From Microbulbifer aggregans (GTDB taxonomy: Bacteria; Pseudomonadota; Gammaproteobacteria; Pseudomonadales; Cellvibrionaceae), in NCBI RefSeq assembly GCF_001750105.1, contig NZ_CP014143.1, forward strand, positions 2,449,501 through 2,513,500: DNA of 64,000 nucleotides, given 5' to 3'. How positions within the stretch are numbered: the stretch's first letter is position 1; each line of letters opens with the position of its first letter. Position numbers and translations under genes: made by a program. This document shows, piece after piece, positions 20,704-42,482 of the stretch. Below the pieces are notes generated by a model. The model did no database searches. It saw only the letters and a program-made list of their open reading frames with translations, and was not told the DNA's origin.

Positions 20704-21915
20704 ATGAATTACGCGGATCTCACCATTCTGGCGCTTTTTGTATTCGTCTACTGTGCGATCAGTGGGCGAGCGGATCGTACACCGATCAATGGTGCGCTGG
20801 TCTATACCCTGTTTGGCCTGGCCGTGGGGTCTTATGGGCTGGGATTATTCAGCGCTGAGGTCGACTCTGGTGGACTGCGTACGATCGCGGAGCTGACTCT
20901 GGCCCTCGTATTGTTTTCCGATGCGGCCAAGGCTGATCTGAGTGTTTTAAAGCAGACCATCGCTGTACCCCGTCGTCTGCTATTGATCGGGTTACCCATG
21001 ACCATTGTTCTGGGAGTGCTCGTCGGGGTAATACTGTTTCCTTCACTTTCTTTTTTCGAGGTGGCGGTGCTGGCGACAATGCTGGCGCCGACCGATGCCG
21101 CACTCGGAAAAGCTGTCGTCTCCAATTCGGCCGTACCCGCCTATATCCGCCAGGGGCTGAACGCTGAAAGTGGCCTTAATGACGGAATTTGTGTGCCAAT
21201 CCTGTTTGTTTTTCTCGCGCTGGCGACTGGCGAGGCCTCCGCGCAGGAGTCCGGCGGTCTGGCTCTAAAGTTGGTACTGGAAGAATTGGGTATTGGTTTG
21301 GTCGTCGGCTTGGGGCTGACTGTAATCCTGACGTACCTGCTGCGGGCCGCCATGCATCTCGGCTGGATTCTTAAAGACTGGCGCCAGATTCCGGTGGTTG
21401 CGATGGCGCTCGGTTGTTTTGGCGCGGCTCAGTGGCTCGGCGGTAGTGGTTTTATCGCTGCGTTCAGTGGGGGACTCCTGTTTGGTTGGCTTATTCCCAC
21501 AGGCAAGCAGCGGTTGCTGGCTGAGGCGGAAAGTGCTGGCGATGTGCTGGCGTTGATCACCTGGGTTGTATTCGGTGCTGCTGTGATTGGCCCTTATCTC
21601 AATGCGATCAGCTGGCAGGTCGTGCTGTATGCCGTGTTGAGCCTGACCGTTGTGCGTATGCTGCCGGTTTTCCTGTGCCTGCATGGGACCATTGCCAGCA
21701 AACCGGAAAAGCTGTTTATGGGCTGGTTCGGCCCGCGTGGTCTGGCGAGTATTGTATTTGGTGTGATCGTTCTGGGAGAGAAACTGCCGGGCGGTGACAC
21801 AATTTCACTGACGGTTGGCATCACAATACTGCTCAGCGTGATCGCGCACGGCCTGACGGCCAACCCTCTGGCGAGTCGTTTGGGGAGCAGGGAGCACCTT
21901 GACCCTGGTGGTTAG
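20704..21915 (+). CDS. NhaP-type (CPA1) cation/proton antiporter
   Basis: An inner-membrane sodium or potassium/proton antiporter of 403 residues with about 12 hydrophobic helices. The signature APTDAALGKAVVSNSAVP, followed by RQGLNAESGLNDGICVP, holds the Asn-Asp ion-binding pair typical of CPA1 proteins. The late GWFGPRGLASIVFGVIVL block, with its conserved Arg, is also present. No cytoplasmic regulatory tail is seen. The stop codon lies inside the start of a decayed K+ channel fragment on the same strand. Confidence 0.9.
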   Translation: MNYADLTILALFVFVYCAISGRADRTPINGALVYTLFGLAVGSYGLGLFSAEVDSGGLRTIAELTLALVLFSDAAKADLSVLKQTIAVPRRLLLIGLPMTIVLGVLVGVILFPSLSFFEVAVLATMLAPTDAALGKAVVSNSAVPAYIRQGLNAESGLNDGICVPILFVFLALATGEASAQESGGLALKLVLEELGIGLVVGLGLTVILTYLLRAAMHLGWILKDWRQIPVVAMALGCFGAAQWLGGSGFIAAFSGGLLFGWLIPTGKQRLLAEAESAGDVLALITWVVFGAAVIGPYLNAISWQVVLYAVLSLTVVRMLPVFLCLHGTIASKPEKLFMGWFGPRGLASIVFGVIVLGEKLPGGDTISLTVGITILLSVIAHGLTANPLASRLGSREHLDPGG

Positions 21916-21919
21916 ACTG

Positions 21920-22108
21920 TACTGCATGCGTGTCTCCGCAGTGACGTTCACCACGCTCCGCGACGGCAGTGTGGTGCAGGAGGAGAACAGGCAACTGCTG
22001 GCTTCCTTTCAAGCCGTCAGCGCCGTCATCATGTTCGGCTGCACCACGGCAGTGGTTATGACAGTGGGGCAGGGTGGTTACGTCTGGAGCGGCTCTGGAG
22101 AGCAATAG
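21920..22108 (+). pseudogene. Decayed K+ channel C-terminal fragment
   Basis: The translated segment VTFTTLRDGSVVQEENRQLL, then ASFQAVSAVIMFGCTTAVV, aligns without gaps to the C-terminal half of the intact channel at 41604-42035. About 27 of 47 positions are identical. The selectivity filter TLGYGD has become TLRDGS, which cannot coordinate K+, and the first transmembrane helix is missing. The frame overlaps the 3' end of the antiporter gene. It is best read as the remnant of a second copy of the channel. Confidence 0.75.
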
Positions 22109-22241
22109 CGCAACAGGTTGAGACCGTCCACATCGAGCGTGCAGTAATCCTTCCTGCTCGGCATTTTCCCGCTCATCAAAGGCAGTTATCGCTGCTCATT
22201 TATTGCGCTTCCGGGTAATGCTGCTGACGTGTCGGTCTGTC

Positions 22242-22271
22242 TTGACCAGTGTGTGAGCGCGGATGCAAAAT
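22242..22271 (+). promoter_or_regulatory. Putative umuDC promoter
   Basis: A -35-like TTGACC (22242-22247) and a -10-like CAAAAT (22266-22271), spaced 18 bases apart, sit directly upstream of the LexA box. Transcription would begin near 22278, at or next to the umuD start codon, implying a leaderless or nearly leaderless message. This is a position-based prediction. Confidence 0.5.
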
Positions 22272-22272
22272 A

Positions 22273-22288
22273 CTGGTCATGTATACAG
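22273..22288 (+). promoter_or_regulatory. LexA (SOS) box of umuDC
   Basis: CTGGTCATGTATACAG fits the CTG-N10-CAG consensus with the AT-rich right half TATACAG. It overlaps the preferred umuD start codon (22279-22281), so bound LexA would block the predicted start of transcription. Confidence 0.85.
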
Positions 22289-22932
22289 TAGTACCCGTCC
22301 CCCTGTTACCCGTTACCGTCTCGGCCGGATTTCCGTCGCCGGCGGCGGCGTATGCGGCCAAACCGCTGGTATTGGATGACTGGCTCTGGCCCGGTCGCGC
22401 CAGTTGTCAGCTGGTCTGTGGGGAGGACGGGAGCCGCTGTTACCTGGTGCTGGACCAGTCATTGCGGCCGGTAGCGGGCGACTGGCTCTGGGGTGGGGAT
22501 GGGCAGCCCCTGTTGCAATGGCCCGGGGTACCGGACAGCCGCATAGCAGACAGTGCGGAAGCCATCGTTGTTGCCGCTTCCATCCAGCTGTTCCGACGGC
22601 GCCCGGATCCCGGTCATCAGCCGCCCTCAATCCATGACTGGTTGGTGCGTCGTCCCCATGCCACTTATTTAGTGAGGGCTGACGGTCGTTCGATGATTGA
22701 CCATGGAATAGAGCACGGCAGCCTGCTGGTGGTGGATCGCAGCAGCGAGCTACACGATGGCGATATCGTCATTGCTGGCTGCACCGACGGCTTCCTGGTC
22801 AAGCAGTACCGGACCAGGCCGCCACGACTGGTGGCAGGGAACGCGGCGTACCCGGATATCGTGCTCGAGCGTGCGCCCCAATACGATCTCGATGGGGTTG
22901 TGATTGCCAGCCTGACCAGGTATCGAGGGTAG
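22279..22932 (+). CDS. umuD: UmuD-like SOS protein with duplicated UmuD' domain
   Basis: Accessory subunit of DNA polymerase V, normally ~140 residues and activated by RecA-stimulated self-cleavage. This one has 217 residues. The cleavage site A16-G17 (VSAGFPSPAAAY) is followed by a degenerate UmuD'-like domain (residues 17-108). Its segments LDDWLWPGRASCQLV, LVLDQSLRPVAGDWLW and AEAIVVAASIQLFRR mirror those of the second domain (119-217): IHDWLVRRPHATYLV, LVVDRSSELHDGDIVI and LDGVVIASLTRYRG. Only the second domain keeps the dyad S138 (RSMIDHG) and K175 (FLVKQY), spaced 37 apart as in E. coli S60/K97. The frame is open to 22249. UmuC follows after one base. Confidence 0.88.
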   Translation: MYTVVPVPLLPVTVSAGFPSPAAAYAAKPLVLDDWLWPGRASCQLVCGEDGSRCYLVLDQSLRPVAGDWLWGGDGQPLLQWPGVPDSRIADSAEAIVVAASIQLFRRRPDPGHQPPSIHDWLVRRPHATYLVRADGRSMIDHGIEHGSLLVVDRSSELHDGDIVIAGCTDGFLVKQYRTRPPRLVAGNAAYPDIVLERAPQYDLDGVVIASLTRYRG

Positions 22933-22933
22933 C

Positions 22934-24214
22934 GTGAAGCGTTGGGACCTTCAGCCCACCCAGATTGCCCTGGTGGATGTGAACAATTTCTATGTGTCTT
23001 CCGAGCGGGCCTTTGACCCCGCGATTCGGCGCAAGCCCGTGGCGGTGTACTCCAACAATGATGGCTGTGTGATTGCGCGTTGCGCGGAAGTCAAAGCCAT
23101 GGGCGTGAAGATGGGCGTGCCGGTGTTCGAGGTGCGTCAGTTATTCAAAGCGCGAGGGGTAGTGACCCGCAGCAGTAACTACGAGCTGTACCACGATATG
23201 TCGACACGCTTTACGGCGTCACTGGAACAGTTCTGCCCGGAGGTGGAGCAGTACAGTATCGACGAGAGCTTCCTGCACTTTCACGGGTTCGGTGAACAGC
23301 TGTCGGAGCATTGCCAGCGCCTGATTGCCGCGGTGCGCCAGTGGACCTCGATGCCGTGCTGTGCCGGCATTGCACCCACGCGCACGCTGGCCAAGGCCGC
23401 CAATCATTTCGCCAAGACGCTGGGAGTGCCCGGCGGCGTGTTGCAGATCGGTAGTGAATACCATCGCCAGCAGTTGCTCCAGCAGATGCCGGCCGGTGAA
23501 GTCTGGGGCGTCGGCCGCCGACTGGCCAAGCGGTTGGCCATGCTCGATATCCACACCGCCTGGGACCTGGCGACGGCGCACGTGCCGACTATTCGCAAGG
23601 CCTTTGGTGTGACCCTGGAGCGTACCGTGCGGGAACTACAGGGCGTTTCCTGCATTGAACTTGCGCCGCTGGATCAGGCCAAGCATGAAATCGTCTCGGG
23701 CCGTATGTTTGGCCGGCTGCTCACACAGTTTGAGGATGTAATGGCGGCGGTGGCCAACCACGTACAATTGGCTGCTGAGAAGCTTGCCGCACAAGACGGC
23801 GTCACCGGCCGTCTCACCACCACCGTGCAGGCCAGGGAGTCCGGTGGAGGTTGGCGTCATCTATCCGCCCATGCGGAGTTCCGGCCAGCCACGAAAGACA
23901 CACAAGCGCTGACCGCTGCGGCACGGCGCGCTCTCAATGAAGTCTTTGTGGCGGGGCGGGAATACAGGCGCGCCTCTGTCTGTTTCTCGGCCCTGGAGCG
24001 GGCGCAGGAGCAACAGGACGATCTGTTTGGAATTACCAACGATGGCAAAGATCGCCTGACGGATTGCCTGGCGGATATCAATCGGCGTTTCGGGCGGGGT
24101 GGGGCGGTGCTGGCCAGTGCCAGGCTGTCGGACGAGTGGCAAATGAAACGGGAACATCTGTCACCGGCTTATACTACTGACTTTCGGCAGCTGCCAGTGG
24201 CGCGGACCGAATAA
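22934..24214 (+). CDS. umuC: DNA polymerase V catalytic subunit UmuC
   Basis: Y-family translesion DNA polymerase, 426 residues, full length. A GTG start lies one base after the umuD stop codon, with GAGGG five bases upstream, so the two genes are co-transcribed. The polymerase palm motifs are intact: ALVDVNNFYVSSER (first catalytic Asp) and QYSIDESFLHF (Asp-Glu pair). The conserved YSNNDGCVIARC and the helix-hairpin-helix/thumb region around GEVWGVGRRLAKRL are present, as are the little-finger domain and a C-terminal tail. Expression is expected after DNA damage through the LexA box upstream of umuD. Confidence 0.96.
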   Translation: MKRWDLQPTQIALVDVNNFYVSSERAFDPAIRRKPVAVYSNNDGCVIARCAEVKAMGVKMGVPVFEVRQLFKARGVVTRSSNYELYHDMSTRFTASLEQFCPEVEQYSIDESFLHFHGFGEQLSEHCQRLIAAVRQWTSMPCCAGIAPTRTLAKAANHFAKTLGVPGGVLQIGSEYHRQQLLQQMPAGEVWGVGRRLAKRLAMLDIHTAWDLATAHVPTIRKAFGVTLERTVRELQGVSCIELAPLDQAKHEIVSGRMFGRLLTQFEDVMAAVANHVQLAAEKLAAQDGVTGRLTTTVQARESGGGWRHLSAHAEFRPATKDTQALTAAARRALNEVFVAGREYRRASVCFSALERAQEQQDDLFGITNDGKDRLTDCLADINRRFGRGGAVLASARLSDEWQMKREHLSPAYTTDFRQLPVARTE

Positions 24215-24452
24215 CGGGCTGTGCTAGCAGGTGCGCTCAGGGCGCCGATGCGGGCTTTGACAGGCGCTAGCAGGTGAATTCCACCCCGGCAAAGACCGGG
24301 TTCAGGTTTGAATCCGCGAGCAGGGGAAAAGTCGCAATCCAGGTGTATTCCTGGGGTGATGGTGTGCTTTTCTCTGTCGTGCGATGACGATGGTTCCGGT
24401 AGGGATCATCCATGCATTCAAGCACAGACGATCCCATCAAGGCTGGCAGATG

Positions 24453-41603: not shown

Positions 41604-42035
41604 ATGCTCGTCAAAGTCCTGCTACTTGCATCGGTATTATTGGTAGTGAATACGGTGATTCACGCGATGGCTATGACTTTGGCCATCCGCTGGAGCCGCC
41701 ATATCGCCGGTTTGCATCCTTCGCACCCATTCTTCCCGACAGGAAGGCCGATGGTGGTTTCCGCAGTCGTGCTGCTGATGTTCTTTGCCTCCGTTGCCGA
41801 AGTGATGGTGTGGGCAGTGGTTTACAAATGGCTCGGCGCATTCAGTGAGGGGGAGCCGGCGATCTATTTCTCGATGGTGACCTATACCACGCTGGGTTAC
41901 GGCGATATCGTATTGGGGGAAAATCTGCGCCTGTTATCCTCGTTCCAGGCAGCCATCGGTATCATTATGTTCGGCTGGACCACCGCAGTCGTCTTGGCGG
42001 TTGTGCAGCGCCTTTACCAGAATCGCAGTGACTGA
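41604..42035 (+). CDS. Two-helix potassium channel family protein
   Basis: A 143-residue membrane protein of the ion-channel-2 type. Hydrophobic helices lie near residues 1-30 and 48-75; then comes a pore loop with an intact selectivity filter, SMVTYTTLGYGDIVLGENLR, and a last helix SFQAAIGIIMFGWTTAVVL. A K+ channel or a small conductance coupled to the neighbouring pump are both possible. It starts 20 bases after the efflux cassette and may be co-transcribed. A damaged relative of its C-terminal half lies at 21920-22108. Confidence 0.85.
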   Translation: MLVKVLLLASVLLVVNTVIHAMAMTLAIRWSRHIAGLHPSHPFFPTGRPMVVSAVVLLMFFASVAEVMVWAVVYKWLGAFSEGEPAIYFSMVTYTTLGYGDIVLGENLRLLSSFQAAIGIIMFGWTTAVVLAVVQRLYQNRSD

Positions 42036-42482
42036 TCGCCCTTCATAGCTAAGAAGTAGCGAATTACATTTTTATTCCCCGTGCATTCACCAAGTTAGTG
42101 AGTCTTGTGCTCGCTTGTGAATGCTTACCGGCATGATAGGTGAAGACTGGGGAATAGAGGAGAACCGTTGTCGATTGGCAAGCCCTAGAGTGGATATCAG
42201 GATGTTGAGTCTGTGAAAAAAGGCGCCTTGATACTGTATAAATATACAGTTTTTGTTGGATGCACTCTTGTTCTCTCATCCGCGTTAGAGAGTTAATTTT
42301 CCTTGGAGAAGATCCGTTTCTACCTGGCGCAAATTTCGATCAGATCCACGTGGAACAAGAGTTTTGAAGTGCCAAGTTCCACGGTTCTGAATGCCGAGTG
42401 ATTCAGTTATCAAATAATAGGCATATATTATCGATCGGTGTGATCTAATAGTTTCTGTTGGTCTTCCTGGTCTGGCGCTCAG
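42036..42482. other. Intergenic region with orphan LexA box
   Basis: About 450 bases between the K+ channel gene (+) and marC (-). No conventional gene is supported. It contains the LexA box at 42234-42249 and a short plus-strand frame at 42260-42367 (35 codons, MHSCSLIRVRELIFLGEDP...) that begins 11 bases after the box but has no ribosome site. A 71-codon minus-strand frame (42064-42279) also covers the box. Either a small SOS peptide, an RNA or a lost gene could explain it. Confidence 0.5.
42234..42249 (+). promoter_or_regulatory. Orphan LexA (SOS) box
   Basis: CTGTATAAATATACAG is a perfect palindromic-end match to CTG-N10-CAG with an AT-only centre, closer to the E. coli consensus than the umuDC box in this window. 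It is flanked by TA on the left and TTTTT on the right. No recognised SOS gene starts within 300 bases on either strand. Confidence 0.8.

Follow-up and report, generated by a model that had tools for sequence, protein, structure and literature searches.

UmuD is a self-cleaving protein, and its processed form, UmuD', works with UmuC as a homodimer. The arrangement of the Pol V complex has been hard to establish. The homodimeric nature of UmuD' means that its two copies in E. coli are not easily mutated separately. The mixed UmuD/UmuD' dimer of E. coli is the form targeted to ClpXP. According to the accessible part of PMC5342242, the arm of E. coli UmuD can be cleaved by the active site of its partner, and efficient cleavage in trans occurs when UmuD S60A is combined with a UmuD lacking 18 arm residues; the same part describes the mixed dimer as being under proteolytic control and refers to a 2011 paper on monomeric UmuD. 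In the accessible part of PMC11791011, an asymmetric arrangement of Pol V is offered as a computed AlphaFold model, in which one UmuD' puts its arm in UmuC while the other binds the UmuC tail at S36, T71, and K73, leaving the second arm exposed. After renumbering, UmuD' S36 and K73 are UmuD S60 and K97, the catalytic pair.

The window analyzed here, a stretch of 64,000 nucleotides, corresponds to positions 2449501-2513500 of the plus strand of the 3.86-Mb genome of Microbulbifer aggregans, and contains a umuD gene with an additional domain (Table 1).

Table 1. Features of the tandem umuD locus, in positions of the window
Feature	Position	Strand	Remarks
Promoter-like elements	22242..22271	+	TTGACC (22242-22247), 18 nt, CAAAAT (22266-22271); by eye
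LexA-box-like site	22273..22288	+	CTGGTCATGTATACAG; overlaps the umuD start codon
Tandem umuD	22279..22932	+	open reading frame, 217 aa plus stop
Cleavage arm, residues 1-26	22279..22356	+	predicted cut A16/G17 (22324-22329); GFPSPA motif
Domain 1, residues 27-108	22357..22602	+	S24-derived; without catalytic Ser/Lys
Linker PDPGHQPP, residues 109-116	22603..22626	+	in place of a second arm; cleavage motif absent
Domain 2, residues 117-217	22627..22929	+	complete S24; Ser138 (22690-22692), Lys175 (22801-22803)
umuC	22934..24214	+	426 aa, GTG start; 1 base past the umuD stop

The 217-aa protein carries the S24 domain with Ser-Lys and the arm with GFPSPA that are hallmarks of UmuD, and its gene lies directly 5' of umuC. 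The hallmark that it misses is a single S24 domain right after the arm, in a protein of about 140 aa; here, an S24-derived domain of about 82 residues intervenes. In HMMER alignments, the arm matches residues 12-40 of E. coli UmuD through GFPSPAA, and the S24 alignment picks up again only from residue 118. The original prediction had read the gene as a UmuD built from two consecutive UmuD'-like domains; its open reading frame, its A16-G17 junction, and the sequence blocks that it quoted were all found as described. Regarding Pfam, of the two halves the second is recognized and the first is not: the Peptidase_S24 match in the 217-aa protein covers residues 120-207 only (E 2.3e-15), and residues 1-113 searched alone gave no S24 match. 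S24 is the sole family recognized in the Pfam scan of the complete protein, which returned no DNA-binding or HTH family. The NCBIfam UmuD model NF007621 scored 93.3 bits over two stretches, under its curated cut-off of 110 bits, and the umuC product matched NF002955 with an E-value of 1.3e-106 and 357 bits, under the cut-off of 431. The best PDB matches of domain 2 are UmuD and UmuD'. An AlphaFold model built from three sequences presented a pLDDT of 39.6 and was uninformative.

To keep GFPSPAA from carrying the score, the ancestry of domain 1 was evaluated on sequences stripped of the arm. The reference set comprised 59 ordinary UmuDs, drawn from 95 S24 matches in 718 ORFs and defined as distinct, non-tandem proteins with the arm motif 8-22 residues ahead of the S24 match. 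Against the cores of these proteins, the armless eight-row profile of domain 1 scored 32.3 (P 1.5e-5), a value matched by none of 300 column shuffles (mean 11.1, sd 2.5, maximum 21.6); the reversed profile scored 10.8. The profile alignment pairs LVLDQSLRPVAGDWL of domain 1 with LVVDRSLEARHGDVV of the UmuD core. The last block of domain 1, VVAASIQLFRRR, falls on the final UmuD strand, in the correct order, and is significant when taken alone (17.9; none of 150 shuffles as high, maximum 16.8). The blocks of domain 1 had been claimed to mirror those of domain 2; the first of them, DWLWPGRASCQLV versus DWLVRRPHATYLV, is not significant by itself, since 58 of 150 shuffles equal it.

An HMM of the armless domain 1 was also searched against the 59 UmuD cores, their 59 reversals, and 2264 non-S24 ORFs. 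Ranks 1-11 were all UmuDs, from 17.6 to 12.8 bits, and the top decoys were a non-S24 ORF with 12.0 bits and a reversed UmuD with 0.7. When the eight armless domain-1 sequences were scored singly with the UmuD HMM, they reached between 2.0 and 9.1 bits, two of them being over the HMMER inclusion threshold, and the direct comparison of Microbulbifer domains 1 and 2, as two shallow profiles, gave an E-value of 0.018 and a probability of 2.5%. Judged from these profiles, the derivation of domain 1 from an S24/UmuD' domain is well supported, as originally predicted, and is favored over an origin unrelated to S24. The predicted lack of Ser and Lys is borne out by the alignment, in which both dyad columns are gaps in all eight Microbulbifer rows. 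Many other elements of the S24 core are missing from this domain, and because so much of the core has been lost, it may no longer be able to form the UmuD' dimer interface.

The full-length tandem occurs at nine loci in eight of the 48 Microbulbifer genomes, with two tandem umuDC loci in M. aggregans. At least ten other genomes of the genus have short-type matches only (approximately residues 108-217), and the remaining genus matches listed are LexA-like. Eight distinct proteins are encoded by the nine loci (the L009 protein equals that of L008 and was counted once); they present 64 to 84% identity to the window protein and align along its length. The arm motif V14-S-A-G-F-P-S-P-A-A-A-Y25 is invariant in the eight rows. 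Inside domain 1, the motifs DDWLWP, LxLD, and RRRxDPG do not vary, and the invariant residues W35, W37, W71, W81, and RRR106-108 are missing from ordinary UmuD; the rows also differ in length in this domain. Over 28 pairs, uncorrected pN/pS averaged 0.43 in domain 1, where it did not exceed 0.58, compared with 0.19 in the arm and 0.20 in domain 2. From these values, domain 1 is translated and under purifying selection, looser than that of its neighbors. Around positions 21925-24219, the similarity with loci L003-L009 and L032-L034 mostly ends at the operon edges; since it ends at the tandem umuDC, the position of the operon varies across the genus.

TTGACC and a stretch reading AAAAT(A/G)CTG were recognized by eye 5' of the gene in all nine Microbulbifer loci. 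A loose LexA-box pattern is found 24 times in the 64-kb window, for 21.9 expected, and a single LexA-box-like match therefore carries little weight. Conservation is more telling: a CTG-N10-CAG site lies across the ATG in nine of nine Microbulbifer loci, as CTGTATATGAATACAG in three of them, and resembles two LexA boxes found 5' of lexA in the same genome. The promoter-like elements end about 7 bases ahead of the ATG, and the box spans the ATG, in all nine loci; owing to this short distance, the mRNA of the tandem umuD may be leaderless. Elsewhere in the window, a perfect LexA-like palindrome, CTGTATAAATATACAG, is located at 42234-42249, with no SOS gene evident beside it, and is overlapped by a 71-aa minus-strand ORF (42064-42279). 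The short ORF ahead of umuD (21899-22108) is similar by eye to the end of a K+-channel-like ORF at 41604-42035 (LLxSFQA..IMFG.TTAVV), as if it were the remnant of a broken channel gene.

Tandem UmuDs are also present on plasmids of Vibrio and Alteromonas. Five protein searches over 72,556 records found at least five of them, which is a lower bound; four were translated and the fifth, NZ_AP024090, was matched at 100% by tblastn. The Alteromonas mediterranea tandem (245 aa) matches 90% of the query in tblastn and has a BLASTP E-value of 4e-19. Its domain 1 scores 76.3 bits over the whole UmuD model, with Ser replaced by Ala and Lys by Arg, and its domain 2 is intact. The Alteromonas macleodii tandem is 95% identical to it and has the same two replacements in domain 1. 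Queries made from the junction found the tandems of Vibrio campbellii (256 aa) and Vibrio nigripulchritudo (249 aa). Domain 1 of the latter has Ser changed to Glu and Lys to Arg; the former keeps Ser and Lys in both domains, which are 65% identical. The second arm of the V. campbellii protein is still visible by eye (LESSEMEYQHLQFSI beside FESPAADYLQPQLSI), with its Gly-Phe and Pro-Ala gone. The Gly that precedes the domain-1 Ser of this protein (L188, 2917-3687) is changed to Asp. With both dyads, the V. campbellii tandem seems to represent the fusion at an early stage.

The dead domain 1 of the Vibrio and Alteromonas proteins is full-length, with UmuD HMM scores of 58 to 67 bits, and two S24 stretches are recognized by Pfam in each of the three plasmid proteins scanned. 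Such unmistakable pairs strengthen, at the level of sequence, the original prediction, which as a whole is partly supported. The umuC gene lies directly 3' of the tandem gene in all five operon types seen, from Microbulbifer and plasmids, and a CTG-N10-CAG box is placed 27-29 bases ahead of the start in the four plasmid tandems. Among the 12 distinct tandem proteins, the dyad is present in domain 2 of all and in domain 1 of V. campbellii only (1 of 12), and GF[EP]SPA occurs once per protein, at the first arm. Dyad losses are always in domain 1, in every lineage with a loss (11 of 12 proteins). The plasmid and Microbulbifer tandems display stages in the loss of the domain-1 dyad. We propose to group as tandem UmuDs the proteins with one arm, two S24-derived domains, a dyad in domain 2, and an adjoining umuC; a single arm and a domain-2 dyad were found in 12 of 12.

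Tandems were also searched for outside these groups. Among the 293 genomes of the order, and likewise among the 100 of the family, a full-length match to the domain-1 profile was found in two Microbulbifer members only; the other matches in the order were partial, mostly to the first 58-64 positions. In 369 genomes of the class, the genome under study was alone in having a full-length match to profile A1 among the matches listed, and profile A7 (E 1e-18) gave no tandem, its two longest spans being interrupted by 7 and 8 stops. Zero matches were obtained at E 1e-26 in 151 genomes of the family of G580, a result without weight given that the search had no positive control, and every match in 24 genomes of the family of G549 lies in a reading frame of 132-154 aa. 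In viral contigs, queries A1 and P0002 gave zero relatives; with an ordinary UmuD as query, 75 arm-bearing ORFs were found among the best 80 of 525, all measuring 112-121 aa from the arm to the end. No tandem was present among the phage matches listed (21 of 21 records in one search, 15 of 20 in another). Two groups of candidates were discarded. The first comprises Klebsiella and Enterobacter plasmid matches to query residues 39-217; in record H1, the N-terminal part of the match belongs to a separate group II intron ORF, which precedes an ordinary umuD, and the other records share this pair of annotations. The second is a Pseudoalteromonas protein (H116), placed high by the junction query, which proved to be an ordinary UmuD of 137 aa.

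In a UmuC tree of 47 rows, 11 of them tandem-linked, the starred branches force at least two origins of the tandem, and none of 200 bootstraps (0%) had a single origin; a single clade (100/99) united the four Vibrio and Alteromonas rows. The second UmuC tree combined six plasmid UmuCs with 15 of the 27 ordinary UmuCs sampled and left out the nine family rows; the G038 UmuC, from a short contig, was excluded from both trees. In this second tree, the Alteromonas tandem has as its sister an ordinary operon of Alteromonas (100/96), and a different clade (98/95) holds the Vibrio tandems together with ordinary operons of Vibrio and Shewanella, a split that suggests either more origins or losses. Domains 1 and 2 of V. 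campbellii are sisters in both domain trees (98/92 and 99/98), which may reflect a separate duplication or a conversion; the domain trees were used for this pair only, as Microbulbifer domain 1, with its very long branch in trees of few columns, is unplaceable. As far as these trees indicate, the tandem UmuD is natural and recurrent, with at least two origins.

We consider that the 217-aa protein is probably a tandem UmuD, which would leave a single-chain UmuD' pseudo-dimer for one UmuC. An ordinary umuD would have been duplicated in frame, the first copy retaining the arm and losing the protease, and the second retaining the protease and losing the arm motif. During the SOS response, the RecA filament would trigger domain 2 to cut the sole arm at A16-G17, much as, in the ordinary UmuD dimer, one subunit cuts the arm of the other. 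Residues 17-217, released in this way, would be the pseudo-dimer, in a 1:1 ratio with UmuC; its computed mass is 22.0 kDa, instead of the value of about 21 kDa first estimated. The arm of domain 1 would then enter the UmuC cleft, and the catalytic groove of domain 2 would grip the C-terminal tail of UmuC. By analogy, the lone arm of domain 1 and the intact groove of domain 2 would fit both jobs that UmuD' has in the Pol V model. The cleavage, the pseudo-dimer, its stoichiometry, and this division of labor are what we infer, and a four-domain assembly, a tandem of tandems, may also form. Beside the Microbulbifer tandems, the UmuC tail, to which UmuD' is said to bind, has an altered motif, [LP]SP.YT[TS] followed by DF or NV; ordinary UmuC tails mostly have, at the DF/NV position, an R/K/S/C-type residue (basic or small) and W. 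This W is missing from seven of seven Microbulbifer UmuCs (L001, L003-L006, L008, and L033) and from at least two of the 27 ordinary ones.

With a pN/pS of 0.43 versus 0.20 for domain 2, domain 1 is the faster evolving of the two, and it could therefore be conceived as a spacer rather than a specialized subunit, that is, as a decayed remnant that keeps the spacing of the arm while dimerization occurs via domain 2, as in ordinary UmuD. Its length changes and its many missing core elements agree with this reading, which we nevertheless hold to be unlikely: pN/pS is at most 0.58 in all 28 pairs, DDWLWP, LxLD, and RRRxDPG are invariant, and Vibrio and Alteromonas retain a full-length dead domain, at 58 to 67 bits. 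The four invariant tryptophans and RRR106-108, foreign to ordinary UmuD, could instead belong to a domain with a new job: it might offer a surface on which RecA, the clamp, or a protease docks, or cover domain 2 as an inhibitory lid until freed by cleavage. We regard such a job as rather improbable, given that Pfam recognizes S24 alone and that the independent tandems have in common only the loss of the dyad and one retained arm.

UmuDAb is longer than ordinary UmuD, as is the tandem protein, which could on this view be a repressor resembling UmuDAb or LexA, with an N-terminal domain of unrelated origin. This identity is highly improbable: the LexA model TIGR00498 scores 37.6 for a cut-off of 110.95, on the S24 part only, the Pfam scan has no DNA-binding domain, and the genome encodes a separate LexA-like protein, from a gene with two LexA boxes. 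The extra region might also have been created by a sequencing or frame error, as the original prediction had considered, or by a fusion artefact. Nothing was found in favor of this, and practically no room is left for it by an ORF that is unbroken at nine loci of eight genomes, with 64 to 85% identity and predominantly synonymous changes.

Returning to the tandem UmuD with a single-chain product, the fusion in this activator of the error-prone polymerase of some marine bacteria may fix the role of each copy in the Pol V complex. A need of Pol V for two dissimilar UmuD' subunits may have led a single-chain UmuD to evolve repeatedly in marine Gammaproteobacteria, an idea put forward tentatively, as possible rather than probable. 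If true, the fusion would fix the roles, set the 1:1 ratio with UmuC, and eliminate the UmuD/UmuD' mixed dimer, and tandem UmuDs would allow the asymmetric Pol V model to be tested in proteins provided by nature. As their copies are joined and diverged, mutations confined to one domain or the other can probe each role separately. Should the mechanism be right, the mixed dimer and its proteolytic control would be skipped, and SOS mutagenesis would be regulated differently. No description of a tandem UmuD was found in the full-text literature searched, a collection that has most subscription papers outside its scope.

Compared with known systems, the tandem shares with E. coli UmuD and UmuD' (PDB 8gmt, 1umu, 1i4v, and 1ay9) the GFPSPAA arm, the S24 Ser-Lys dyad, the gene position directly 5' of umuC, and a LexA-box-like site. 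On the other hand, E. coli UmuD has one S24 domain per chain, whereas the tandem has two, with one arm for the domain pair and, in Microbulbifer, the dyad in the second domain only. The mixed dimer of UmuD S60A and UmuD-delta-18 described in the accessible part of PMC5342242 similarly combines a dead, arm-bearing unit with an armless, active unit that cuts in trans, but it consists of two chains in vitro and the tandem is one natural chain. Acinetobacter UmuDAb, a relative of UmuD, likewise has additional sequence at its N terminus; in the accessible parts of PMC4807011 and PMC11332147, its N-terminal domain is required for repression, while the extra domain of the tandem is S24-derived and lies past the cleavage site. 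For the YqjX/YolD proteins of YqjW-type polymerases, one small-subunit chain per polymerase has been proposed, as would be the case here; according to the accessible part of PMC12926913, YqjX is modeled as a single domain, whereas the tandem UmuD has two domains per chain.
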